Made by a program: the position numbers and the translations under genes. DNA of 64,000 nucleotides, taken from contig NZ_CADEPK010000030.1 of NCBI RefSeq assembly GCF_902829255.1, forward strand, positions 1 through 64,000, in the 5' to 3' direction. Every line of letters begins with the position of its first letter. The stretch's first letter is position 1. This DNA comes from Metabacillus niabensis. GTDB taxonomy: Bacteria; Bacillota; Bacilli; Bacillales; Bacillaceae. This document shows, piece after piece, positions 6,249-58,055 of the stretch. The notes beneath the pieces were generated by a model, which was not told where the DNA came from, ran no database searches, and saw nothing but the letters and a program-made list of their open reading frames with translations.

Positions 6249-8993
6249 TTATTCAGCATTGGTCTTTCTTCTTACTATGAGGAATGCAATTGCACCAGTG
6301 ATTAAAACAATAGCACCAATTAGTAACGTATTATATGTGCTTGTTGCTGTATCCGGTAATTTTTCACCAGTTGTTTCTTTTTCATTATGAACAGGCTCAA
6401 CTGTTACATCCTCTGGAGCTTCTGTTCCTGGTGGGTCTGTCCCTGGTGTTTCCTCACCTGGTGGGTCTGTTCCTGGTGTCTCCTTACCTGGTGTTTCTGT
6501 TCCTGGCGTCTCCTCACCTGGTGGGTCTGTTCCTGGCGTCTCCTCACCTGGTGGGTCTGTTCCTGGCGTCTCCTCACCTGGTGGGTCTGTTCCTGGTGTT
6601 TCCTCACCTGGAGCCTCTGCTGGAATTTCTCCAGTTTCATAATAAGCTTTAATTTCTTCTGCTGTTAATACCTTTGCATCGTATACAAGTAATTCATCCA
6701 TTAAGCCTTTATATGGGGTGTCCCAGTAGTTTACACCTAAGGCGAATACACCGTTCTCTGTTGTGAAGACGTCTGGGAAGTTTTCACCCGCAAACTTTTC
6801 TTCACCATTTACATAGATTTTTATACTACCGTTGTCTACTGAGAATGCAATATGTGACCATTCATTTGCTGGAATTTTCATACCTGTTCCCGCGTCATAC
6901 CATGCTTCACCTGACCAGAGCATCGTATCATTTGCTACTCCGTCATGGCCCATTGGTAAAAAGCTAATCCATTTTGTGTTACTGCTCCCACCAAAGAATG
7001 AAGTTGTGTATTTATTCAATTCCTGCGGATTTAGCCATAATGATACCGTGTACTTATTACTAGAAATCAATCCATCTGGCAAACGAATTCCAGATGCACC
7101 GTCAAATACAGCTGCTTGTCCAACTTTTCCTTCTGCAAATGCACTTGTTCCACCTGTATTATCAATACGGTTACCAGTTACTGCACCGTCCGTCACATTT
7201 CCCGTGCTATCCTTTAAATTATCCTCAAATGCATAATGGGCAACGAGCTTACCTTCCTTTTGCGGTAAAACGACGACTGTAAATTGCTTCGTATCGGTCA
7301 TTTCACCTTTAGTTATCGTTGCCGTAAGGGTTACTGTCACCGATTCCTTTCCAACAGGACGAGTTACTTTTCCATCTTCAGAAACGATTTCAGGATGTGA
7401 TGATTGCCACGTAATTTGTGTCCCACGTAATCCTGTTGTTGGTAATGTTAAATGACTAATGACATTTGTTGTGTCTCCAAGACTTAAATCATTTTTAACC
7501 GCCGCAACAATTTCTGCATCTGATTGTGATGCTGTTTTACTTCCCCAAATCGCAATGCCTTCATTTGATAGTGCAGTAAATGTTAAAACATATTTTTCAG
7601 AGGTTGGATCCCATTGGCGAACAAACACACCTTTATATGTTTTACCATCAACCTGTAAAGTCGCTTCATTTTCACCAGATAAACTCCATTCACCTGTTAC
7701 GTCACCAGAAATCGTTCCATCGTCATTTAACGTAACTAGCACTGATTGTTTAATTTCTGCTGAAATATCTTTTCCATGATTAATAAATTTATAGTCTCCG
7801 CTTATATCTGATGCTTCAACCCTTTCTAACGATTCGCCCGCATAACGATATGGCGAAACAACCGGCCAACCATCTTCATTCATATACATTTTATGTACAC
7901 GAACCTGATGCATTTCACCTTTTTCAGGGAAACGAGTATGGAAAATTAAATATTGTTCGTCTGTTGCTTCATCATAGTAAACAGAATTATGACCTGGCGA
8001 AACATAGCCTGTCCCAATTCCAGTTCCAGCCTCACCAACTTCTCTTTTGAATAAGTGACTGCCCATTAATTTCACACCATATGGTTCGATTGACGCATCA
8101 TCAAATATCGGAAGGTCTGGATTAGCCTTGACATTAATCATGTCATTGCCTTCTGCATCATAATATGGACCATCAGGATTTTCCGAACGAACAACACGCA
8201 TGTTATAGCCGCCAGTTGAATCTAGTCCGCCAAATGATAGGTACATATAGTAATAATCCGTTTCTTTGCTATATTGGACATATGCTCCTTCAATACGACT
8301 ATGGTTTCCACCGAGTAATTTTTTCCCATAGCCTTGGTTTGGCAATGGTTCACCTGTTTCAGGGTCCATTTCCATAATGAAAATACCACCAGAGTATGAA
8401 CCGTACATCATCCAGAGCTTGCCATTTTTATCAAAGAATACATCTGGATCAACGGCATTTGGATGAATTCTTGCATCATAAATCGTTCCATCTGGGCTTA
8501 CTTCATCCCACATCCCGGATTTCAGGAAGATTCCTTGATCTTTGTAAGGGCCTTCAATATTGTCTGCAACGGCAATCCCCATCGCTGAACGAGGAGAATC
8601 TCCTTTACAAGCGTTATAATACATATAAAACTTCCCATTTAATTCAATCACATCTGCTGCCCATAATGTATCAGATTCTGCCCAGTCAAAAGTTTCCTTT
8701 AATTCCTCAACAACGTTTTCAAATAACGGGTTATCGGGATTAACTAAGTTTGCTACTTCATCCCATTGCATAAAATCCTTTGTCTTTGCAGCTGCTAAGT
8801 GAGAGCCAAAAACATAGTACGTGTCACCTGTTTTAATGACTGACGGATCGTGGACAGATACATCTTTAAAAACAGGTGCTTCTGCTTGCTCGCTTGCTGC
8901 CCCATCATTTTCAATGGCGAACGCTAAATTTGGAACAAGAAGTACAAGTGTTAAAAATAAAGCTAAAAATCTACGAGATAATTTCTTTTTCAT
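6249..8993 (-). CDS. secreted, cell-wall-anchored GH43 endo-alpha-1,5-L-arabinanase (multidomain)
   Basis: The start at 8993 has an AGGAGGGG site nine bases upstream; the longer frame to 9053 lacks one. Order in the 914-aa product: signal peptide (cut after AFA near 27); GH43 five-blade propeller (about 40-370) with general base D49 in VHDPSV, pKa-setting D182 in NAVDPDVFF and general acid E235 in SRIEGAY; a beta-barrel C-terminal arabinanase domain (about 395-490); an atrophied Ig-like domain (about 500-590); a LamG/concanavalin-like domain (about 595-800); a Pro-Thr-Glu repeat linker; then LPDTA, a hydrophobic helix and RRK. LPDTA rather than LPxTG points to a class D sortase. It should cut arabinan at the cell surface. 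AraR-like and cre-like sites upstream support arabinose induction and catabolite repression. It interrupts the rlmD-alkA order. Confidence 0.9.
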   Translation of the reverse strand: MKKKLSRRFLALFLTLVLLVPNLAFAIENDGAASEQAEAPVFKDVSVHDPSVIKTGDTYYVFGSHLAAAKTKDFMQWDEVANLVNPDNPLFENVVEELKETFDWAESDTLWAADVIELNGKFYMYYNACKGDSPRSAMGIAVADNIEGPYKDQGIFLKSGMWDEVSPDGTIYDARIHPNAVDPDVFFDKNGKLWMMYGSYSGGIFIMEMDPETGEPLPNQGYGKKLLGGNHSRIEGAYVQYSKETDYYYMYLSFGGLDSTGGYNMRVVRSENPDGPYYDAEGNDMINVKANPDLPIFDDASIEPYGVKLMGSHLFKREVGEAGTGIGTGYVSPGHNSVYYDEATDEQYLIFHTRFPEKGEMHQVRVHKMYMNEDGWPVVSPYRYAGESLERVEASDISGDYKFINHGKDISAEIKQSVLVTLNDDGTISGDVTGEWSLSGENEATLQVDGKTYKGVFVRQWDPTSEKYVLTFTALSNEGIAIWGSKTASQSDAEIVAAVKNDLSLGDTTNVISHLTLPTTGLRGTQITWQSSHPEIVSEDGKVTRPVGKESVTVTLTATITKGEMTDTKQFTVVVLPQKEGKLVAHYAFEDNLKDSTGNVTDGAVTGNRIDNTGGTSAFAEGKVGQAAVFDGASGIRLPDGLISSNKYTVSLWLNPQELNKYTTSFFGGSSNTKWISFLPMGHDGVANDTMLWSGEAWYDAGTGMKIPANEWSHIAFSVDNGSIKIYVNGEEKFAGENFPDVFTTENGVFALGVNYWDTPYKGLMDELLVYDAKVLTAEEIKAYYETGEIPAEAPGEETPGTDPPGEETPGTDPPGEETPGTDPPGEETPGTETPGKETPGTDPPGEETPGTDPPGTEAPEDVTVEPVHNEKETTGEKLPDTATSTYNTLLIGAIVLITGAIAFLIVRRKTNAE
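6417..6615 (-). repeat. in-frame 30-bp tandem repeats encoding PGEETPGTDP linker
   Basis: About six near-identical 30-bp units encode the decapeptide PGEETPGTDP, one variant reading PGTETPGKET. The linker spans the wall between the LamG domain and the LPDTA anchor. Units are nearly identical at the DNA level, so copy number may vary between strains. The same DNA gives long artefactual frames on both strands. Confidence 0.9.
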
Positions 8994-9075
8994 ACTTTCA
9001 TACCCCTCCTTTTTGTATGAAACGAAGTATTTACCCAAGAGTTGTATGCGCATTCATTATTTGGGATAAAAAGGG

Positions 9076-32283: not shown

Positions 32284-32898
32284 ATGGCAAGAAAGAAAGA
32301 TAAATTCTTTACTCACTTAACAGGGATATCAGCCAATTTAAAGGAAAGTGCAAATTACTTTGCCGACTATAAATTGAAGAATGCGAATGACCTTAAAATC
32401 TTTTCTGAAAAAATGAAGGAATTTGAATCAAAGGGAGATACGTTAGTACATGAGGTGACAAAGGATCTACATAACGCTTTTATTACATCTATTGAACGAG
32501 AAGATATTCTGACGTTAACAATGAATTTAGATGATATTTTAGACGGTATCGAACATACAGCTTCATTATTTGAAATGTATTCTGTCTTGGAAGTTGATGA
32601 ATATATGAATAAGTTTGTCGAAGCAATTAAGAAATGTGTAGATGAAATTGATAAGGCGATCGAGCTCCTTTCTGCAAAAAAATTGCTTGCTATAAGAGAA
32701 CATGCGATTAAGGTTAGAGAGTTAGAATCAAAATGTGACGAATTGCTACGCAGTTCCATTAAACATTTATTTGAGGTAGAAAAGGATCCAATCAAAATCA
32801 TTCAATATAAAGAAATTTATGAGGATTTAGAGGAAATAGCAGACTTTTGCCAAACAGTCGCTAATACGTTTGAATCAATTATTATGAAAAACGCATAG
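32284..32898 (+). CDS. ykaA: DUF47 (PhoU-like) protein YkaA
   Basis: The 204-aa all-helical protein has DUF47 signatures: FFTHLTGISANLKESANYFADY at the start, ESKGDTLVHEVTKDLHNAFITSIEREDIL (helix pair, about 48-76), LDDILDGIEHTASLFEMY, and the second repeat LESKCDELLRSSIKHLF. DUF47 proteins resemble PhoU and are usually encoded beside Pit phosphate transporters, which they modulate. The pit gene follows after 46 bases, as in B. subtilis ykaA-pit. Confidence 0.92.
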   Translation: MARKKDKFFTHLTGISANLKESANYFADYKLKNANDLKIFSEKMKEFESKGDTLVHEVTKDLHNAFITSIEREDILTLTMNLDDILDGIEHTASLFEMYSVLEVDEYMNKFVEAIKKCVDEIDKAIELLSAKKLLAIREHAIKVRELESKCDELLRSSIKHLFEVEKDPIKIIQYKEIYEDLEEIADFCQTVANTFESIIMKNA

Positions 32899-32944
32899 CG
32901 CTCCCACATACTACGACACAATCTAACTGTTAGTGGAGGTTCAA

Positions 32945-33931
32945 ATGACAATTATTGTTATCATCCTTATACTTGCATTAATCTTTGAGTTCATTAATGG
33001 GTTTCATGATACAGCAAACGCGATTGCGATGTCTGTATCAACAAGAGCATTATCCCCTCGATTTGCGGTTATTTATGCTGGGGTCTTAAATTTCATCGGT
33101 GCTTTAGTATCACAAGCAGTTGCCAAATCAATCGGGGGAAAAATCGCTGATCCCTTTCAAATTGAAAACGGCTTATACATTGTGATCGCAGCGTTAATTG
33201 CAGCAATTTTTTGGAATCTTTTCACATGGTATTATGGGATTCCATCTTCATCCTCTCATACATTAATTGGTTCTGTCGCTGGAGCTGTTATTTTCGGCTC
33301 TGGGCTTAACTCAATTAATTGGCAAGGATTTACCGATATTATTCAAGCGCTCATTATTTCGCCATTTTTAGCCTTTGGCGTTGGTTTTGTTCTGATGAAA
33401 ATATTAGCCCTTTTATTAAAAAATTTAAACCCTCATCGCGCAACACGTGGCTTACGCGGCTTTCAAATTGTTGCTTCAGGTTTAGCTGCCTATTCTCATG
33501 GCGGAAATGACGGGCAAAAAACGATGGGGATTATTGTTTTTGCTTTAGTTGCCGGTGGGTTCCAATCGACATTAGATGTACCATTTTGGGTTCAGGTTAC
33601 GTGTGCTGCGACTATCGGGCTTGGAACAATGATTGGTGGGATGCGGATTATCAAAACAGTTGCAAAGAAAATCTTCAAGGTGCAGCCAATAAATGGATTT
33701 GCAGCTGATTTATCATCATTCGCAGTCTTACAAGGTGCGACGATGCTTGGCTTACCTGTATCGACGACACATGTGTCATCCTCTTCAATCTTAGGTGTTG
33801 GTTCAGCTAAGCGTTTCCGTGGTGTAAATTGGGGGGTCGCAATAAGAATTGTGACAACATGGGTCATTACCCTTCCAATATCAGCGTTAATCGCAGGGCT
33901 CATTATAACAATTATCAATTTTTTCTTATAG
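32945..33931 (+). CDS. pit: low-affinity inorganic phosphate transporter Pit
   Basis: Pit transporters import metal-phosphate with protons. The 328-aa protein has the duplicated PiT signature: FEFINGFHDTANAIAMSVSTRAL (about 12-34) and AYSHGGNDGQKTMGIIV in the second half (about 178-194), plus PSSSSHTLIGSVAGA and LPVSTTHVSSSSILGVG. About ten membrane segments. The ATG at 32945 follows a GTGGAGG site; the upstream in-frame GTG overlaps that site. It forms an operon with ykaA. Confidence 0.93.
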   Translation: MTIIVIILILALIFEFINGFHDTANAIAMSVSTRALSPRFAVIYAGVLNFIGALVSQAVAKSIGGKIADPFQIENGLYIVIAALIAAIFWNLFTWYYGIPSSSSHTLIGSVAGAVIFGSGLNSINWQGFTDIIQALIISPFLAFGVGFVLMKILALLLKNLNPHRATRGLRGFQIVASGLAAYSHGGNDGQKTMGIIVFALVAGGFQSTLDVPFWVQVTCAATIGLGTMIGGMRIIKTVAKKIFKVQPINGFAADLSSFAVLQGATMLGLPVSTTHVSSSSILGVGSAKRFRGVNWGVAIRIVTTWVITLPISALIAGLIITIINFFL

Positions 33932-37574: not shown

Positions 37575-39552
37575 TATGAGCATAATTAAACAAGACTTTA
37601 GACAAAATGGATGGATTGGCATTGCCTATTTATTATGCCTTCTTTTCGCTGTACCCTTAGAAATCCTGCAATTATCGTCACAGGAATATGTCATATTTAA
37701 GGATTATCAAAATTACTTTTTTATCAATACAGATTTACAAATCATCTTTTTATTTATAATTCCGGTTGCAGCAGGGCTACTTTTGTTTCGATATATTCAA
37801 AATGAAGCATCCGTTGATATGATCCATAGCCTGCCAATACGAAGAGAAGCCATCTTTTTTAACCACCTTATAAGTGGATTGTTATTATTGATTCTTCCTG
37901 TAATCATAACTTCGATTACAACCTTTTTTGTAACAAAATCTGTTAAGGAGTTTAATTCAATCTTAACAGGCTCTGAGCTTCTTTCATGGACAGGGATTTA
38001 TTTACTTATGACCTGCTTATTATTTAGCATCACGATCACAATAGGTATGATGACTGGGATGAGTAGTGCGCAAGCGATTCTTACGTATATATTTTTGTTC
38101 CTCCCAGTTGGTTTAGTAACGTTGATCATTTATAATTTTTCCTTTTTACTATACGGCTTTTCTTCAGCTTTTATTGAGAAGAAAATTGAATATTTATCTT
38201 TATTCATTAGATATCTCAATATTAACAGTTATGATATGCCCTTTACTGCTAAGGAAATTTTGATCTATTCCTTAATTACAATAATCCTTATCTTCATCGG
38301 TCTCATGCTTTATAAGGCTCGTCATTTAGAAAGAGCAACAGATGTTATTGTCTTTCCATTGTTAAGACCTATTTTCAAATATGGAATGACTCTGTGCAGC
38401 ATGCTATTAGGAGGTACTTATTTTTATAGTACGACGAACGGAGTATGGGGTTGGCTTATCTTTGGATATATTAGCGGTGCGTTCTTAGGCTATATCATCG
38501 CTGAAATGATTCTGCAAAAATCTTGGAGAATCTTTCATATCCGAGCCTTTACTGGGTTAATCGGCTTTAGTATTATCGTCATTATTATTTTAGGTGTAAT
38601 AAAAACGGATTTACTAAATTTTGAAAAGAAAATTCCTAGTCTAGACGAGGTAAGTGAAGTTTATTTTGGAAATAGCTATCTATTAAACGATTTTCTTGAT
38701 TATAAAGACTATGATATCTTTTCAAAATCAAAGGAGTATATTGAAGCTGTAAGAAATCTCCATCAATCGATTATTGAAGATAAAGAGTTTATTCTATCAA
38801 AACGCAATGACAGTTCTTTAAATTCACAAGACATGATAATCGCCTATCGCTTAGAAAATGGGAAGATTCTTTCTCGGGAATACAACCTCCCGTTACAGTT
38901 TCTAGAAGATGAGCTAAAGCCAATAATGGACTCTAAAGAATACAAGAAAAGTCTTCCTGAATTTTTACAATTGCAGAATGAAACTCGAAGTATAGAATTC
39001 GAATCAAATGATCCGATTGCAAAACAAATTGTCATTAATGATAAAAAAGAAATAAAAGAACTCAAACAAATACTAGAGGAAGAATTGCTTAATATGACAG
39101 TTGATGATTTCCTATCACCATCACCAGCATGGGGCTATATTACCTTAAACGGAACACAAATCTTTGAAAACTCTCCATTATCTGGTTACCCGATCGATTG
39201 GCTCAAATCATTTAATCATCTCTCCAGCTGGCTTGATAAACATGGATACTTATCAGATGCACATATTAACATAAACCATATTAAACAAGCCCAAGTAACA
39301 ATGGTAGACGAAAACTTAGATGAGCTTGAAATCTATGACATTGAAGAAATTTATCCAATGGGAGAAACAGTCCATACGATTACTGACAAGGCAGTCTTAA
39401 CTGAGCTACTTGAAAAGTCAATTGATTCTGTAGATTATCCGTCACAAAATAAGTACTATATTAAATTCACTTTAACAAATGGTACACATTGGTTTGTCAC
39501 GATTGCTAACGATCGAGTACCAAAAGAGGTAAGCAATTTGTTTAATCAATAA
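37549..39552 (+). CDS. ABC transporter permease with large extracytoplasmic domain (667 aa)
   Basis: The ATG at 37549 has a GGAGG site nine bases upstream, inside the ATPase gene. The N-terminal part has about nine membrane segments of the ABC-2 type (FRQNGWIGIAYLLCLLFAVPLEI; SVDMIHSLPIRREAIFFNHLISGLL). After the last segment (about 335-360) comes a soluble region of about 300 residues (FEKKIPSLDEVSEVYFGNSYL onward) that resembles no domain I recognise. It probably forms an exporter or envelope-stress transporter with the upstream ATPase. The soluble tail has no coils or cysteines. Confidence 0.82.
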   Translation: MKSKKSFFNMSIIKQDFRQNGWIGIAYLLCLLFAVPLEILQLSSQEYVIFKDYQNYFFINTDLQIIFLFIIPVAAGLLLFRYIQNEASVDMIHSLPIRREAIFFNHLISGLLLLILPVIITSITTFFVTKSVKEFNSILTGSELLSWTGIYLLMTCLLFSITITIGMMTGMSSAQAILTYIFLFLPVGLVTLIIYNFSFLLYGFSSAFIEKKIEYLSLFIRYLNINSYDMPFTAKEILIYSLITIILIFIGLMLYKARHLERATDVIVFPLLRPIFKYGMTLCSMLLGGTYFYSTTNGVWGWLIFGYISGAFLGYIIAEMILQKSWRIFHIRAFTGLIGFSIIVIIILGVIKTDLLNFEKKIPSLDEVSEVYFGNSYLLNDFLDYKDYDIFSKSKEYIEAVRNLHQSIIEDKEFILSKRNDSSLNSQDMIIAYRLENGKILSREYNLPLQFLEDELKPIMDSKEYKKSLPEFLQLQNETRSIEFESNDPIAKQIVINDKKEIKELKQILEEELLNMTVDDFLSPSPAWGYITLNGTQIFENSPLSGYPIDWLKSFNHLSSWLDKHGYLSDAHININHIKQAQVTMVDENLDELEIYDIEEIYPMGETVHTITDKAVLTELLEKSIDSVDYPSQNKYYIKFTLTNGTHWFVTIANDRVPKEVSNLFNQ

Positions 39553-39555
39553 CAC

Positions 39556-39600
39556 AAAGAGCTGCTCCCCCGAATCTATGAGGTGAGCAGCTCTTTTTTC
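39556..39600. terminator. intrinsic terminator shared by the ABC operon and the 51-aa gene
   Basis: AAAGAGCTGCTC (39556-39567) pairs perfectly with GAGCAGCTCTTT (39585-39596), followed by TTTT. It is four bases after the permease stop, and on the other strand just after the stop of the small gene ending at 39603. Confidence 0.92.
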
Positions 39601-39602
39601 GT

Positions 39603-39758
39603 TTATTTTTTGTTTGCTTGCTTTCCGCTTTTCTTTTGACTTTGATGTTCACTATTTCCTATTTGAAAGTCATTTCCTAGCTCAATATCATTTTTCCCTT
39701 GCTGTTTTTCAATTTGCTTATACGTCTGCTCCTTATTTTGCATTCCTTGATTTGACAT
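39603..39758 (-). CDS. 51-aa hydrophilic Gln/Lys/Asn-rich protein
   Basis: A short frame starts at an ATG 8 bases after AAGGAG. The product MSNQGMQNKEQTYKQIEKQQ... is hydrophilic, with no Cys, Trp or Pro, a central GNDIELGNDFQIG-like stretch and a Lys-rich end (QKKSGKQANKK). Its composition resembles small acid-soluble or other minor spore proteins, but I cannot match a named family. The shared terminator at 39556-39600 supports it being a separate transcript. Confidence 0.6.
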   Translation of the reverse strand: MSNQGMQNKEQTYKQIEKQQGKNDIELGNDFQIGNSEHQSQKKSGKQANKK

Positions 39759-39860
39759 ACGCCTCACTCCTTAAATGGTTTTCATCCTTACTATGTACAT
39801 CTTCTTCATTTCCATTCTTAAAATTTCACTGAAGCAATGCGAAAACAGCAAATCAAAAAA

Positions 39861-39907
39861 AGAGACTGCCTCAAAAATGTCTGTTTCCAGACTTTGAGGC
39901 AGCCTCT
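39861..39907 (-). terminator. intrinsic terminator of the DHOD-membrane fusion gene
   Basis: AGAGACTGCCTCAAA (39861-39875) pairs with TTTGAGGCAGCCTCT (39893-39907), with one mismatch, then a long T-run on the minus strand. It directly abuts the stop codon. Confidence 0.9.
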
Positions 39908-39908
39908 T

Positions 39909-41711
39909 TTATCTAGTTCTCTTTAATAAAAACGGCGCAGTGAAAATAACTCCAATTAAGTATAAAGCAACTGCAATGTATGCAGGCAATAAATGAATAA
40001 AAACGGTATAGTTAATAATAAAATGCGTAATAATTCCAGAAAGAAATGCAGGGATCGCTCCGATAGTAAATGTCCACCAAACCCACCCTTCTCCTTCACG
40101 AATCCCCCACAAGGCAAGCATCAATACGAGCAAACCTACACTTAGCAAGGCACTTCCAAATCCAGCGCGATCATGTGCAATGACAGGAATTAATTTTTCG
40201 TTAAATTCATTGATCGCTTCTGGAGTAAGACATAAATAAGATAGATCCGTTGGTACGAAGACATTTGATGCTCCAATAACTGAAATGACAACTCCGCCAA
40301 GAGCTAGAGAAAAACCTAATATGACAAACGCTAGCTGTCCGAATAAACTCATCCTCCAATAGCGACTATTAAAAAGGTTTGTACTTGATGGTGCTGCCAT
40401 TGCATTTTTTGATTTCTTATATCCTAAAATAAAGAACGGTAATAAAATTAACCAAAACAATCCATGAAGCCAATCAAAGTAACCATACCCAATAAATAAA
40501 AGAATTCCTAGAAACCCAATAATACCTCCTATATTTACTGCCTTTCTTGCCCAATGAAGGCCATTTTGAATACCATATTTTGCAAGCTGCATATAAATAA
40601 TTCCACCAGATATCATCGTTCCCGAAAGCGTCATCCTGTCATGTGCCATAAAGGATAAAATGCCAGGATTAAAACTGAAAATATCATTTCTCATCATCCC
40701 TAAAAACGATTCATCATATGGAAGGATAATTGATGTCATACTAAAAAACAATGCTATGAATCCAGCAATAGTGATAGCTAAACCGAACAACCAATACCAA
40801 ATCCATCCGCAAACAAATACATGCTCCGTTTGAAATCGATTGCTATATACCTCATTGATTCGTTTCGGAAGGCCTGGTCCAGCAAATATATATTCAAAGT
40901 CTAACATGATAAGTGAGGCTCCGTTTTCTAGTAATCTAGTAGCATCTAAAGGCTCTTTAATTCCACCTGTCGTAATAATAGGAAGGTCGTCACTAAAGGA
41001 TTTCCTTAATGCAACAAGCGCATCGATTAGCGAATGATGTGAACTGGTTTCCTCAAGAAGAATCCCATTTGGATTATATTGTTTCAACTCTTCAGCATTC
41101 GCTATACATTCTGCCGTACATGCAACTATTAACGGTTTACTTACACTGTCTCGTAATTGATTAAATTGATTAGCTGAAGCAAAAGCGTTGTCGTTTATAA
41201 TAAAAGCATCACTATATGGCTGAAGTATTTCGCAAATTTGAGTTATTTCTTGAAAAGTTCCTTCTATCCTAATAAAAAGCGGAACCTTCTTCTTTTTAAG
41301 TGAGTTCAGCTTCTTCAAAACTGCCGATAGCTTAATTGATATGTTCGTATTTCCTTTAACCTGTTCCTGATAAACATAAAGTTCTTCCTTCTTATCTGTA
41401 CCGCGGATTGAAACTGGTCCGATTTCAATAAAGCCAAAACCAAGATTTTGAAACGCTTTTAGCCCAGATAAATTAGGGTCGATTTTACCACATAATCCAA
41501 CAGGAGAGGAAAACGTTATCCCGAAAAGTCGTTTTTCAAGATCTTTTGATGGTGCCATATGTCCAAGAAACTCGATAACCGCTTCACCTATCGCTGTAGA
41601 GGATATCATACTCATCCCCCGATGAATAAATTCCCGGCTAAACGAAGCTGGCAGCTTCTGAAGAATCGGCTTAAATATAGGATGATAAGACCAATCTGGC
41701 AACGTTCCCAC
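39909..41711 (-). CDS. dihydroorotate-dehydrogenase-like domain fused to an eight-helix membrane domain
   Basis: Residues 1-300 follow the DHOD barrel: FGITFSSPVGLCGKIDPN (about 63-80), GFGFIEIGPVSIRG, a degenerate middle (YSDAFIINDNAFASANQF) where FMN/substrate Asn motifs would be, and the phosphate-binding end PIITTGGIKEPLDATRLLENGASLIMLD. Residues 305-600 contain eight membrane segments in two matching halves, each with an AHDR motif (FMAHDRMTLSGTMISGG; IAHDRAGFGSALLSVG). The NISSPNT-like loop of true PyrD is not visible, so pyrimidine synthesis is unlikely. Such long DHOD-labelled proteins occur in some Bacilli. It is a single gene. Function open. Confidence 0.75.
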   Translation of the reverse strand: MGTLPDWSYHPIFKPILQKLPASFSREFIHRGMSMISSTAIGEAVIEFLGHMAPSKDLEKRLFGITFSSPVGLCGKIDPNLSGLKAFQNLGFGFIEIGPVSIRGTDKKEELYVYQEQVKGNTNISIKLSAVLKKLNSLKKKKVPLFIRIEGTFQEITQICEILQPYSDAFIINDNAFASANQFNQLRDSVSKPLIVACTAECIANAEELKQYNPNGILLEETSSHHSLIDALVALRKSFSDDLPIITTGGIKEPLDATRLLENGASLIMLDFEYIFAGPGLPKRINEVYSNRFQTEHVFVCGWIWYWLFGLAITIAGFIALFFSMTSIILPYDESFLGMMRNDIFSFNPGILSFMAHDRMTLSGTMISGGIIYMQLAKYGIQNGLHWARKAVNIGGIIGFLGILLFIGYGYFDWLHGLFWLILLPFFILGYKKSKNAMAAPSSTNLFNSRYWRMSLFGQLAFVILGFSLALGGVVISVIGASNVFVPTDLSYLCLTPEAINEFNEKLIPVIAHDRAGFGSALLSVGLLVLMLALWGIREGEGWVWWTFTIGAIPAFLSGIITHFIINYTVFIHLLPAYIAVALYLIGVIFTAPFLLKRTR

Positions 41712-41920
41712 TCCTCTCTTTCTTTTCTAATTTATATTAGCACAGTTCGCAGCAAATGGTAGCACTTGTAAATACCCTAAATATCTTTGAGACAGACAAT
41801 ATGACAATTCATTAAAAAACGATTTTTAGTGTACTAATTGTCTTACTTGGAAATTCGAATAGCAAGCGACTCTAAGTAAAACACATGGTTTTCTAAGCTG
41901 AAATCCGCCTCGTTTACAGA

Positions 41921-41955
41921 CAAAACCCTTGAAGGTGTGTAATCCTCCAAGGGTT
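41921..41955 (-). terminator. intrinsic terminator of the ugp operon
   Basis: AACCCTTG (41924-41931) pairs with CAAGGGTT (41948-41955), and the minus strand continues TTTTG. It lies 12 bases after the ugpB stop. The 41712-41920 stretch upstream of the DHOD fusion holds nothing else that I recognise. Confidence 0.75.
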
Positions 41956-41967
41956 AGTTTTTAACTA

Positions 41968-43338
41968 TTAATTTCCTTGCTTTTTATTCGCAACTTCTAA
42001 TGCTCGGTTCGTTTCTTCTGCTGCTTGATCTAATGCCTCTTTCGGATCCATTCCTTGATAGAGATTTTCCATTGCCGTAACAACCTTTTGACGAGATTCA
42101 GGGAATACAGAAATTAATGCACCTTGAGTTGCTGTACTTTTCTTCGTCTCAGCAAGCTGATCAACAGTTACTTTTAATTGCGGATATTTTTCCCATTCTT
42201 CTTTAACGATATCTTGCTCATAGGCAGCAGGGTTAATTGCAAAATACCCTGATTTCACATGCCATTCAGCTTGTACCTCTGGTGTAGTTAAATATTTCAT
42301 AAATTCCCATGCAGCCTTTTGCTTCTCTTCATCAATACCGCTAGACATCCAGATTGAAGCACCGCCGATAATGACACCTTCACGCTCTGAGTCATCAGGA
42401 ATTGGTAAATATGATGCTCCTACTTCAAAGTCTGAGTTATCAACCATTGCTTTAATCCCAGCAGATGAATCGAGATACATCGCAATTTTTCCAGATTGAA
42501 AGGCAGCGCGCATATCATCCCAGTTTTGTCCTACATTATAATACGTTCCTTCTTTATACATTTCACTAATTAAATTGAAAACCTTTAAGCCCTTTTCGTC
42601 ATTAAAGGTTGCTTTTTCCGCGTTTCCTTTTCTGCCGTTTTCATTATCTACATAATGACCGCCTTGCTCAGCAAGCATTTCTTCAAAGAACCAGCCATAA
42701 TTTAAGATAGAGAAGCCGTATCTAGTCGTTTCTCCACCTTCTTTTTTCGTTAATTTTTTTGCCGCTTCTTTTAATTCACTATAAGTCATTGGAGCTTTTT
42801 CCGGATCTAATCCAGCCTCTTTAAACGCATCCTTATTGTAGATTAAAATTGGTGTTGATGAGTTGAAAGGCATCGAATATTGTTCACCATCAACTGTATA
42901 ATAATTTGAAATATTCTCTTCCCATTGTGATGTATCATAGTTATCCTCATCAATAAATTTTTGCACTGGTTGAATTTTACCGCTATCAATCATATACTTT
43001 GTTCCAACCTCAAACACTTGCATAATTGTTGGCGCATCATCAGTTCCGGCAACTGAGTTAAACTTTGTTAAAGACTCTTCATATGTACCTTGGAAAATAG
43101 GCTTAACCTCAATATTATCTTGAGATTTATTAAAATCTGCAACAATATCATTTAAAAGCTTCTCAAGCTCTCCACTCATCGCATGCCAAAATACTACTTC
43201 CTGCTTCCCTGTGCTGCCAGTTTCCTCTCCATCACCTTTTACATCTGACTCAGAAGAATTCGAATTTGTACTAGTAGAGCACGCACCTAAAAGTAATAAA
43301 AATAACGCAGAAATGACGATTAACAATTTTTTCTTCAC
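41968..43338 (-). CDS. ugpB: ABC transporter substrate-binding lipoprotein, UgpB-type
   Basis: The 456-aa protein has a lipoprotein signal (LLLLGACSTST, Cys near 20) and the extracellular solute-binding family 1 fold: QEVVFWHAMSGELEKLLNDIVADFNKSQ, ILIYNKDAFKEAGLDPEKAPMTYSEL and AWEFMKYLTTPEVQAEWH. WHAMSG-type starts are typical of UgpB, which binds glycerol-3-phosphate or glycerophosphodiesters. The start is GTG behind GAGGAGG. As the last gene of the glpP-ugpCAE-B operon its ligand is very likely a glycerol-phosphate compound. Confidence 0.88.
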   Translation of the reverse strand: MKKKLLIVISALFLLLLGACSTSTNSNSSESDVKGDGEETGSTGKQEVVFWHAMSGELEKLLNDIVADFNKSQDNIEVKPIFQGTYEESLTKFNSVAGTDDAPTIMQVFEVGTKYMIDSGKIQPVQKFIDEDNYDTSQWEENISNYYTVDGEQYSMPFNSSTPILIYNKDAFKEAGLDPEKAPMTYSELKEAAKKLTKKEGGETTRYGFSILNYGWFFEEMLAEQGGHYVDNENGRKGNAEKATFNDEKGLKVFNLISEMYKEGTYYNVGQNWDDMRAAFQSGKIAMYLDSSAGIKAMVDNSDFEVGASYLPIPDDSEREGVIIGGASIWMSSGIDEEKQKAAWEFMKYLTTPEVQAEWHVKSGYFAINPAAYEQDIVKEEWEKYPQLKVTVDQLAETKKSTATQGALISVFPESRQKVVTAMENLYQGMDPKEALDQAAEETNRALEVANKKQGN

Positions 43339-46289: not shown

Positions 46290-46889
46290 TTATCTTTTCA
46301 TTGAAAGCGTGGGCTGCTGCACCTTCCAAAGCCAAGGCCTCCCTGTCGATACAGCCACAGCTCCACTCTTTAATGCAGCATCGATATGGCGCTGCTCTTG
46401 AATTAGCCCACCAGTAATAATAGGTAGATTCGTTTCATCCTTTAGCTTTGCTATCATTTCGGGAATAAGTGCTGGCATGATTTCTAAAGCATGCGGCTGG
46501 ATTTCAGCTACTGAATGTAGACCATTTTCCACCGCCTCTGTATCAACTAAAAAAAGCCTTTGAATCGTAATAAGCCCTTCCCTTTTCGCTAGTTGGATAA
46601 GCGAGCTTTTCGTTGTTACGATTCCTGTTGGATTAACAAATTTCGCGATAAACTTTAACCCTTCCCGGTCATAGCTAATACCAGGAATTTTTTCTATATG
46701 TAAAAAAACAAATCGATTATTCTTTTTTAGAAGCTCAACATATCGTTTAATAACACTTATATTTCCTGTTAGTAAAATCGCAGATTGTATGTTTGTTTCA
46801 AGAAACATGTCTAAGCTTTTCGGATCCTTTATAGATGCGATCAACCGATCTTCCTTCAATCGTCTCGTAAACTCCTGATAAACATTCAT
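46290..46889 (-). CDS. glpP: glycerol-3-phosphate responsive antiterminator GlpP
   Basis: GlpP binds glycerol-3-phosphate and the leader RNA of glp genes, preventing early termination. The 199-aa TIM-barrel-like protein has the typical KDPKSLDMFLETNIQSAILLTGNI, FVFLHIEKIPGISYDREGL, FVNPTGIVTTKSSLIQLAKREG, TIQRLFLVDTEAVENG, ALEIMPALIPEMIAKL and ITGGLI motifs. It leads the ugp operon. The leader upstream has a terminator hairpin, so it probably controls its own operon as well as any glpFK/glpD elsewhere. Confidence 0.92.
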   Translation of the reverse strand: MNVYQEFTRRLKEDRLIASIKDPKSLDMFLETNIQSAILLTGNISVIKRYVELLKKNNRFVFLHIEKIPGISYDREGLKFIAKFVNPTGIVTTKSSLIQLAKREGLITIQRLFLVDTEAVENGLHSVAEIQPHALEIMPALIPEMIAKLKDETNLPIITGGLIQEQRHIDAALKSGAVAVSTGRPWLWKVQQPTLSMKR

Positions 46890-56513: not shown

Positions 56514-56546
56514 TGGTTTTCGATTATGAAAGGCGGTGATAAATCG

Positions 56547-56855
56547 TTGGATGATAAAGTACTTAGAAAGCTATTTTTAGGATTTATCCATATTCATATT
56601 CTCCATCATGCAAAGGAACACCCGATTTATGGCCTTTGGATGCTTGAGGAATTAAAGGAGCACGGTTATAGCATTAGCGCTGGTACGCTCTATCCAATCC
56701 TTCACACGATGGAAACAGATGGACTGCTTATTCGTGAGGATAAAAATATTGATGGAAAAATAAGAAAGTATTATACAACAACAGCTAAAGGTGAGAGTGT
56801 TTTAGAAGAAGCTAGAAAGAAAGCCTATGAACTTTTTAAGGAAATAAAAGAGTAA
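56547..56855 (+). CDS. PadR-family regulator, partner of chrA
   Basis: The protein is a short PadR winged helix: FIHIHILHHAKEHPIYGLWMLEELKEHGYSISAGTLYPILHTMETDGLL with the wing DGKIRKYYTTTAKGESVL and a dimerisation helix. A TTG at 56547 has an AAAGGCGGTGAT site six bases upstream; an in-frame ATG seven codons earlier lies before it without a site. It precedes chrA by 12 bases. PadR-chrA pairs of this kind are known from other Bacilli and suggest regulation of the transporter. Confidence 0.88.
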   Translation: MDDKVLRKLFLGFIHIHILHHAKEHPIYGLWMLEELKEHGYSISAGTLYPILHTMETDGLLIREDKNIDGKIRKYYTTTAKGESVLEEARKKAYELFKEIKE

Positions 56856-56867
56856 AGGAGCTTGAAG

Positions 56868-58055
56868 ATGAAACAAAAAACAACCTTAGCAACATTATGG
56901 GAAATCCTCCTTGTTTCAACTAGGCTTGGCTTAACCTCATTTGGTGGTCCTGTCGCACATCTTGGCTATTTTCACGAGGAATATATTCGCCGAAGAAAAT
57001 GGCTCGATGAAAAGAGCTATGCTGATTTAGTAGCACTTTGTCAATTCCTCCCTGGGCCAGCAAGTAGCCAAGTTGGCATTGGGATCGGCGTTATGAAAGG
57101 AGGACTGCTTGGCGGAATCACGTCCTTTATTGGTTTTACCCTCCCATCTGTCATTGCCCTTATTTTATTTGCTATTCTGCTTCAAGGCTTACATATTAGT
57201 ACTTCAGGCTTTATCCATGGATTAAAAATCGTTGCTGTTGCTGTTGTTGCTCATGCAATTATTGGAATGGCACAAAAATTAACACCTGATTTAAAAAGAA
57301 AAGCGATCGCTCTCATTGCATTGGTTGGCACGCTTTTATGGCAATCAGCCTTGACCCAGGTAGGAGTCATTCTTATTGCAGCTTTTGTAGGGTATCTATT
57401 CTATAAAAATGAACAGGTCAGCAATGAAAAAACGGTTCAATTTCCGATTTCAAAAAGGTTTGCAATCATCTGTTTAGCCCTGTTTTTTGGCATATTAATT
57501 GCACTGCCGATTATGAACGATCTTACATCGTTAAGCTGGATCGCCATGTTCGATAGCTTTTATCGTTCAGGATCATTAGTGTTTGGAGGGGGACACGTCG
57601 TCTTACCATTATTAGAAAAGGAATTTGTCCCAACTGGATGGATGTCAGAGGAAGCCTTTCTTGCCGGCTATGGTGCAGCACAAGCTGTTCCTGGTCCATT
57701 ATTTACATTTGCTGCTTATCTTGGAGCTGTCATGAACGGATGGCAAGGTGGGGTCATTGCAACTATCGCCATCTTTTTACCGGCATTTTTGCTCATCCTT
57801 GGTACGCTGCCATTTTGGAATATGCTCCGCAGCAATCAAAGCATAAATGGGGCATTATTAGGTGTTAATGCTGCTGTTGTTGGGATTTTAATTGCAGCTT
57901 TTTACCAACCGATTTGGCAAAGCTCTATATTAAGTGCTCCGGACTTTGCCTTTGCTGCGATTCTCTTTAGCATGTTAGTTTATTGGAAGCTCCCCCCCTG
58001 GATCATTGTTGTCACTGGAGCTTTAGGCGGTTGCTTGATTCTTCCATACCTTTGA
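56868..58055 (+). CDS. chrA: chromate transporter ChrA, long two-domain form
   Basis: ChrA proteins expel chromate. The 395-aa protein has two homologous halves: TRLGLTSFGGPVAHLGYFHEEY (about 18-39) with LCQFLPGPASSQVGIGIG, and FYRSGSLVFGGGHVVLPLLEKEF with GYGAAQAVPGPLFTFAAYLGA. Both carry the (S/V)FGG and P-G-P motifs of the CHR family. The ATG at 56868 has an AAAGGAG site; a TTG two codons upstream is less likely. It is in an operon with padR. Confidence 0.93.
   Translation: MKQKTTLATLWEILLVSTRLGLTSFGGPVAHLGYFHEEYIRRRKWLDEKSYADLVALCQFLPGPASSQVGIGIGVMKGGLLGGITSFIGFTLPSVIALILFAILLQGLHISTSGFIHGLKIVAVAVVAHAIIGMAQKLTPDLKRKAIALIALVGTLLWQSALTQVGVILIAAFVGYLFYKNEQVSNEKTVQFPISKRFAIICLALFFGILIALPIMNDLTSLSWIAMFDSFYRSGSLVFGGGHVVLPLLEKEFVPTGWMSEEAFLAGYGAAQAVPGPLFTFAAYLGAVMNGWQGGVIATIAIFLPAFLLILGTLPFWNMLRSNQSINGALLGVNAAVVGILIAAFYQPIWQSSILSAPDFAFAAILFSMLVYWKLPPWIIVVTGALGGCLILPYL

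Follow-up and report, generated by a model that had tools for sequence, protein, structure and literature searches.

A predicted fusion of a degenerate class-2 dihydroorotate dehydrogenase with a duplicated membrane domain carrying twin invariant sites in Metabacillus niabensis

Background

Two described protein families come closest to the subject of this study. For class-2 dihydroorotate dehydrogenase (DHODH, PyrD), PMC8520639 describes that the N-terminal part localises the bacterial class-II enzymes at the membrane, that quinone binding by this part has been proposed for the fungal enzymes, and that a serine is the catalytic base. For heme A synthase (CtaA/COX15), PMC7327177 describes the B. 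subtilis enzyme as two pseudosymmetric bundles with eight helices in all and heme B in the C bundle; in the Aquifex enzyme two histidines hold this heme. Here we analyze a gene from Metabacillus niabensis (GCF_902829255.1, contig NZ_CADEPK010000030.1, positions 1 to 64,000; this 64,000-nucleotide stretch is called the window) that appears to join a relative of the first family to a membrane domain with a predicted layout similar to the second. A search of a limited collection of papers returned nothing on a PyrD with membrane helices.

39909 to 41702, minus strand: gene for the PyrD-like/membrane fusion protein, 597 aa, start TTG 41702-41700, stop TAA

The sequence comparisons and predicted models below lend good support to the anatomy of the protein: a dead class-2 PyrD is followed by a duplicated membrane domain, and this carries twin invariant sites. 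Relatives were collected with a pattern scan of the species-genome collection, which reaches close relatives only: 112 were found and 80 kept, for example from Neobacillus, Cytobacillus, Lederbergia, Metabacillus and Halobacillus. Residue counts refer to 99 aligned rows, consisting of 80 rows (the window protein and 79 loci), 18 further members and one protein of Mycobacterium branderi.

The N-domain is a degenerate class-2 PyrD

40827 to 41702, minus strand: N-domain, degenerate class-2 dihydroorotate dehydrogenase, residues 4-295 (by fold match, profile comparison and active-site loss)
41682 to 41699, minus strand: N-terminal motif PDWSYH, nearly unchanging

Profile searches identify the N-domain at a distance. 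Pfam DHO_dh matches the whole protein with 37.9 bits (cut-off 27), best over the last 58 residues of the N-domain, and the NCBIfam class-2 PyrD models match it piecewise with at best 89.1 bits, below the equivalog cut-off of 267. The structural comparison is far more pronounced: in a full-length AlphaFold2 model made with 44 sequences (mean predicted local distance difference test, pLDDT, 89.5; predicted template modelling score, pTM, 0.89), residues 9-296 superpose on the class-2 DHODH of H. pylori (6b8s_A) with Z 27.9 and a root-mean-square deviation (rmsd) of 2.5 over 286 aligned residues, and Z values of 25-27 are obtained against the class-2 enzymes of E. coli, Acinetobacter, M. tuberculosis and human. 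Foldseek (E 6e-12) and hhalign (98.3%, or 99.2% with a wider set) likewise connect the N-domain to E. coli PyrD. Most fold alignments begin at model residue 7-11, showing that the class-2 N-terminal helices are present. Judged by the models, the parent of the N-domain is a class-2 PyrD whose N-terminal helices have been retained. Ahead of these, P5, D6, W7 and Y9 are invariant in 99/99 rows including the Mycobacterium protein, and the model has a pLDDT of 48 over residues 1-10.

The initial annotation had read the N-terminal part as a DHODH-type fold with the GGI motif and without a NISSPNT-type loop, and this reading holds: GGI is kept, and the place of NISSPNT in E. coli is occupied by a dissimilar, shortened stretch. 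The position of the catalytic serine (S175 in E. coli numbering) is Ala176 in the window protein. We take the other active-site residues compared here to be orotate and FMN (flavin mononucleotide) residues. Conserved catalytic residues of PyrD were looked for and not found: out of 99 rows, K66 is kept in 1, T86 in 0, N111 in 0, N139 in 7, N172 in 11, S175 in 5, N177 in 5, K217 in 0 and N246 in 3, counts that were made without a second true class-2 PyrD as control and that are approximate for the barrel middle, since gaps make the alignment uncertain there. As locus L083 the Mycobacterium gene is left out of barrel counts for its short N-domain; the 99 rows have its protein as read from the annotated start. 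No row keeps more than two of the eight residues K66, N111, N139, N172, S175, N177, K217 and N246. D65 (98/99) and the GG glycine (83/99) remain, and the loss of the active site is seen in the 80 rows as well as in all 99.

These residues rule out a canonical PyrD identity and bear out the earlier suggestion of a former flavoprotein not engaged in pyrimidine synthesis; that the N-domain is a burnt-out, non-catalytic PyrD is well supported by the alignments. An ancestral active form was sought in divergent members that belong to further families within the class and the order (18 of 20 stretches used), and none of these keeps the active site. The canonical pyrD, which the initial annotation proposed to locate in the same genome, is found in the pyr operon (G000:C392): a class-1B gene with 358 bits to DHO_dh, standing between genes that we take, by eye, to be carB, pyrK, pyrF and pyrE. 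The DHO_dh matches of this genome consist of that gene, the window gene and one more below the cut-off. At least one database record labels a family member dihydroorotate dehydrogenase, a function that the active-site positions do not support.

The membrane domain is duplicated and carries two invariant sites

40398 to 40808, minus strand: membrane repeat 1, transmembrane helices TM1-TM4, residues 302-438 (models and half alignment)
40713 to 40715, minus strand: D333, repeat-1 site, invariant 99/99
40635 to 40643, minus strand: H357-D358-R359, repeat-1 site, first turns of TM2, invariant 99/99
40464 to 40466, minus strand: H416, repeat-1 site, start of TM4, invariant 99/99
39930 to 40349, minus strand: membrane repeat 2, TM5-TM8, residues 455-594 (models and half alignment)
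40245 to 40247, minus strand: D489, repeat-2 site, invariant 99/99
40167 to 40175, minus strand: H513-D514-R515, repeat-2 site, first turns of TM6, invariant 99/99
40023 to 40025, minus strand: H563, additional histidine close to the end of TM7, without a counterpart in repeat 1, invariant 99/99
39993 to 39995, minus strand: H573, repeat-2 site, start of TM8, invariant 99/99

The eight membrane helices in two halves noted in the initial annotation are predicted with confidence in the full-length model and also when the membrane domain is modelled alone (pLDDT 87.5, pTM 0.89); besides the eight long helices, the latter model shows a pair of short ones ahead of each of TM2 and TM6. Membrane halves that do not align to each other were looked for and not found. 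As a single pair the halves align over 130-135 residues at 26% identity (BLASTP E 1e-13; hhalign 98.9%, E 3.6e-17), and with a wider set hhalign gives 99.2%. The AHDR motif reported for both halves does occur in the equivalent place of each. HDR is invariant in 34 repeat units and in both repeats of all 99 rows; the preceding alanine is not, being S or Q in some members. Going by these alignments, the homology of the halves and their shared HDR are far beyond chance, and the duplicated site that had been proposed lies in a true duplication with D, HDR and H unchanged in both repeats.

The 34 repeat units are 17 first and 17 second halves, one pair of which comes from Mycobacterium, and their alignment has seven invariant columns: G, D, H, D, R, W and H. 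Over the 99 rows W535, W543 and Y568 are invariant too, as is F354, three residues ahead of H357. Mean pairwise identity in the 80 rows is 0.65 for the membrane domain against 0.43 for the N-domain. More finely, it is 0.66 and 0.67 for the two repeats and 0.63 for the N-terminal helices, against 0.50 for the first, 0.26 for the middle and 0.54 for the last part of the barrel. From these identities, the membrane domain and the N-terminal helices are under the strongest selection, and the barrel middle, the former region of the catalytic serine, is under the weakest. Because the PyrD part is burnt out and the histidine sites hardly vary, the membrane half is probably the working part of the protein.

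Loop charges suggest an orientation. The mean number of K+R is 3.8, 4.2, 1.5 and 2.1 for the three inner loops (TM2-3, TM4-5, TM6-7) and the C-tail, against 2.2, 0, 0.9 and 0 for the outer loops; the loops with the aspartates and the starts of TM2, TM4, TM6 and TM8 are thus on the outside. By this charge bias the barrel is cytoplasmic, and the His/Asp/Arg sites face the opposite, outer side.

Database searches with the membrane domain, strictly kept Asp/His-Asp-Arg/His pair included, give no convincing match in Pfam, NCBIfam, PHROGs or the PDB sequences. In PHROGs only phrog_8249 appears (best E 6.8e-5, 5/34 units; 3/25 in another set); we set it aside as weak, and it has no match in 60 genomes, the window's own among them, and none in the Myrna and M. 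branderi records. Among PDB sequences nothing besides RNA polymerase is matched at E up to 10, and the polymerase beta chains, which meet the repeat profile at E 0.12 via a D...N...L-P...HD stretch, were rejected as a chance match. Foldseek lists no match at E 0.001 or better. The same holds for the BFVD fold search, where one 149-aa Myrna phage protein (E 3.3) reaches a TM-score of 0.60 relative to its own length. With VIA-align a single match stands out: chain O of 8xqw (Z 15.6, rmsd 3.8, 247/318 aligned, 8% identity), the next row having Z 5.7. A value of 15.6 exceeds the level that VIA-align calls common for helical bundles.

Possible function

The reading we prefer, held tentatively and with somewhat less than even confidence, is a non-catalytic, membrane-docked barrel serving a membrane domain whose two outer sites would bind a cofactor, heme or metal being most likely. 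The proteins form a single-gene membrane family in which a class-2 PyrD became fused to an eight-helix domain born by duplication of a four-helix unit. By sequence and models, the barrel has kept its fold, its N-terminal helical part and the region of the last strand and has lost the residues for orotate, FMN and chemistry; it would lie against the membrane in the cytoplasm as a scaffold or regulator. Function would be carried by the two putative outer-facing sites, each most likely binding its cofactor via two histidines (TM2/TM4 and TM6/TM8). The candidate cofactor is heme or a metal ion; Asp and Arg would assist, and the arrangement would work like the two four-helix bundles of CtaA. The transmembrane redox or transport module proposed in the initial annotation is likewise a candidate function.

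A resemblance to CtaA is among the arguments for this. In both, histidines occur early in TM2/TM6 and TM4/TM8 on the outer side, and an arginine soon follows the first histidine of each bundle (HR in CtaA, HDR in the family). The spacing is close as well: 0/59/156/216 in 98/99 rows of the family, against a commonest spacing of 0/62/153/215 for the four conserved histidines of CtaA (13/37 rows; ranges 61-65, 152-158 and 214-224 in the 36 rows with all four).

A number of observations weigh against the preferred reading. Any compact 4+4-helix plan would by itself impose part of the histidine spacing. Comparison with CtaA by hhalign is not significant (0.67%; 0.97% and 5.7% with the wider set, depending on direction; 0.2-1.4% for the halves), and in the weak overlap found HR and HDR are out of register. 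The wider-set values exceed the 0.05-0.36% of eight membrane proteins encoded in the window that are unrelated, which as single sequences are not a like-for-like control. PF02628 is not among the Pfam matches of the protein or its membrane domain, and CtaA is not among the fold matches listed by Foldseek and VIA-align, a listing that cannot exclude it. The glutamate three before the first histidine of CtaA (36/37 rows) is absent, its place being taken by F354, and the fifth conserved histidine differs (+121 in CtaA, H563 at +206 in the family). Finally, the segment ahead of TM1 is acidic rather than positive (K+R 1.8, D+E 3.2), and the lack of a significant Foldseek match counts here also. Because sequence kinship is not supported and the fifth histidine and the glutamate of CtaA lack a counterpart, we propose no more than that the membrane domain may, by analogy, work like a heme A synthase-type protein. 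The genome of the window has two different ctaA-like genes of its own (G000:C14, L113, and G000:C299, L119).

A more specific version of the preferred reading seems to us fairly unlikely: a new bis-His heme protein on the CtaA plan without sequence kinship, with one heme per repeat on the outside, that captured PyrD as its cytoplasmic domain, first as an electron feeder and then as a silent dock, further reduced in Mycobacterium.

The other explanations partly overlap with these and with each other, so that their chances are not strictly exclusive. Eight helices arranged as two parallel repeats might also be expected of a transporter or channel, with the repeats as parallel halves. Substrate or ions would then bind at the charged residues, and the dead barrel would gate or regulate from the cytoplasm. 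Foldseek does rank transporters of the major facilitator superfamily first, weakly (best E 0.026), but their TM-scores are near 0.2 with an rmsd near 20, no transporter model matches convincingly, and in the predicted model the invariant charged residues near the starts of TM2, TM4, TM6 and TM8 form one face and not a path; we consider a transporter unlikely. Invariant His-Asp-Arg-His sets in a gene that is an optional unit without fixed neighbours would also suit an embedded enzyme with outer catalytic His/Asp/Arg, whose substrate might be a lipid, a quinone or a surface molecule, the barrel being a leftover anchor. This we judge improbable to a similar degree, as no enzyme family is matched convincingly and two complete copies of a site are unusual for a single catalytic centre.

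The standout VIA-align match to 8xqw chain O, together with an N-terminal PDWSYH that is unchanging despite low model confidence, would fit a role within a membrane protein complex, as subunit or as chaperone, with dead barrel and membrane domain both serving assembly. The identity is, however, 8%, sequence searches give no match to this chain (E up to 10), and no neighbour family stands directly upstream in more than 7/81 or downstream in more than 5/81 loci; such a role is quite unlikely in our view. Least probable is a still-active flavoenzyme for another substrate, with altered FMN binding and an electron route that leads into the quinone pool or runs via the membrane domain. The class-2 N-terminal helices and the GG motif at the phosphate end do remain, but K66, N139, K217 and N246 are lost in 98, 92, 99 and 96 rows, respectively, and the Mycobacterium protein dispenses with about a third of the N-domain.

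Distribution of the family

Searches with the membrane profile were made within Bacillota, each counting the window's own genome. In the window's family 15/80 genomes have a match, all of its own genus and two as fragments only. For the order the number is 98/397 (one weak, G621; one broken, G649), for the class 20/299 (one a fragment) and for the phylum 2/249, namely the window's own genome and one weak match. In a search of 398 genomes 13 matched, of which only the window's own genome and G471 carry the family; the others score 16-19 bits, and frames of 1148-1241 aa among them look like the RNA polymerase chance match. In several members that belong to further families of the class the N-part is longer, reaching 383 residues ahead of TM1 compared with about 295, and these are still without the active site. 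No family match was found in phage searches, nor any by pattern in viral contigs.

Only 2/72,556 plasmid records hold the gene. The copy of Cytobacillus spongiae is annotated as dihydroorotate dehydrogenase and that of Mycobacterium branderi as a hypothetical protein. The latter (L083, 4398-5915) has 505 aa from its annotated start, the version used in the 99 rows, begins with MPDWTYHP and keeps IEIGPV and GPG. Its N-domain of about 205 aa is about 90 residues shorter, and the site residues of the membrane domain are all kept. Against the barrel profile this N-domain aligns over 18 columns only, with a score of 45.3 against at most 21.9 in 100 shuffles. An IS110 transposase gene starts about 400 bases past the family gene on the M. 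branderi megaplasmid, and may hint at transfer.

Broken or partial copies occur in several relatives (L174, L179, G305, G316, G649, and L005 with a mid-gene stop), so the gene can be lost; going by these copies, it decays in some lineages. Several rows were left out: L040, which meets a contig end, and L080, whose N-terminus could not be recovered, are omitted from the 80 and the 99 rows, L174 (frame broken in the barrel) and L179 (a remnant) from the 99 rows, L075 (stop) from the tool alignments and L009 (stop) from alignment A3. Four rows of the script alignment contain a stop, L005 mid-gene and L009, L012 and L075 near the C-end.

Start codon, flanking hairpins and neighbourhood

41924 to 41955, minus strand: terminator-like hairpin between the upstream ugpB-like gene and the fusion gene, 12-pair stem and tail
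39860 to 39908, minus strand: terminator-like hairpin directly after the fusion-gene stop, 16-pair stem, 17-nt loop, T-rich tail

The frame listing confirms an open frame of 600 codons at 39909-41711 on the minus strand. Its first GTG, at 41711, overlaps a purine-rich stretch resembling a ribosome-binding site (gagaggag, about 41718-41711). In 81/81 loci the codon preceding PDW[ST]Y is a start codon (65 ATG, 16 TTG), and the window gene has TTG in this position, three codons past the GTG. For this reason TTG 41702 is the likely start, and the protein is probably 597 aa long and begins with MPDWSYH.

A hairpin stands in the 265 bases between the last stop codon of the upstream gene set and TTG 41702, another follows the stop, and the gene looks like a separate one. 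The upstream set is presumably a ugp-like ABC (ATP-binding cassette) transporter, named by eye. A terminator scan of the stretch found 4 sites like 41924-41955 against 1.8 expected from shuffles. The stem of the downstream hairpin, read from the sequence with its arms checked, has 15 Watson-Crick pairs and one G-T; the scanner, limited to loops of 3-8, gave only shorter forms of it.

No common promoter motif was found upstream of the family genes in 81 loci, and 39500-42100 holds 8 sigma-70-like sites against 8.4 expected. A SigB promoter, hinted at by GGGTAT in the window, was rejected: at least 9 matched points are reached in 3/81 family upstreams against 69/914 controls. Boxes of other sigma factors and regulators gave no lead, the largest counts being SigK-like (5/81 against 24/918) and SigE-like (2/81 against 11/918). 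An operon partner is not found either, the commonest directly adjacent family being present in 7/81 loci upstream and 5/81 downstream. Within about 6 kb, an ABC-ATPase cluster occurs in 15/81 loci and a cluster of short-chain dehydrogenases/reductases (SDR) in 12/81.

Some further genes of the window were observed. At 46290-46889 a presumed GlpP-like antiterminator gene precedes the ugp-like transporter genes. Genes that we take to be DUF47/PhoU-like and PiT-like, the latter for phosphate transport, lie at 32284-33931 and end about 6 kb from the fusion gene; a similar pair is present up to 6 kb upstream of the family gene in six loci, directly so in L026 and L028. At 56526-58055, about 15 kb away, lie two genes that by eye are PadR-like and, next to it, chromate-transporter-like; such a pair stands directly downstream of the family gene in L050, L054, L074 and L082, in the last of these under those names. 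The protein encoded at 6249-9053 is, by eye, secreted and glycoside-hydrolase-like; it has ETPGTDPPGE repeats that are nearly identical and a C-terminal LPDTA-type sorting signal.

Comparison with known systems

With class-2 PyrD (E. coli 1f76/7t5k, H. pylori 6b8s) the N-domain shares the fold, the N-terminal helices and the GG, IEIG and GP end motifs. It differs in being without the catalytic serine, the orotate Asn/Lys and the FMN Lys/Asn, its substrate loops are deleted, and eight membrane helices are fused to its C-terminal side. The class-1B PyrD/PyrK of the same genome has a remote barrel kinship with the N-domain through Pfam DHO_dh, and is a separate gene in the pyr operon. The family would represent a metabolic enzyme turned silent partner of a membrane domain.

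Modelling and searching the C-terminal half alone, as the initial annotation had suggested, leads to a confident eight-helix model and to chain O of 8xqw, part of the Ycf2-FtsHi motor of the Chlamydomonas chloroplast, on which the entire domain superposes at 8% identity, with no sequence match. If this fold match reflects true kinship, it would link a bacterial family to an organelle machine, the chloroplast import motor. If on the other hand heme or metal is found, the family would be a new membrane cofactor protein. CtaA/COX15 (PF02628, 6a2j) is a further system for comparison: both have eight helices in two related four-helix bundles, and the family differs in having no conserved cysteine pairs and in carrying a fused PyrD barrel.

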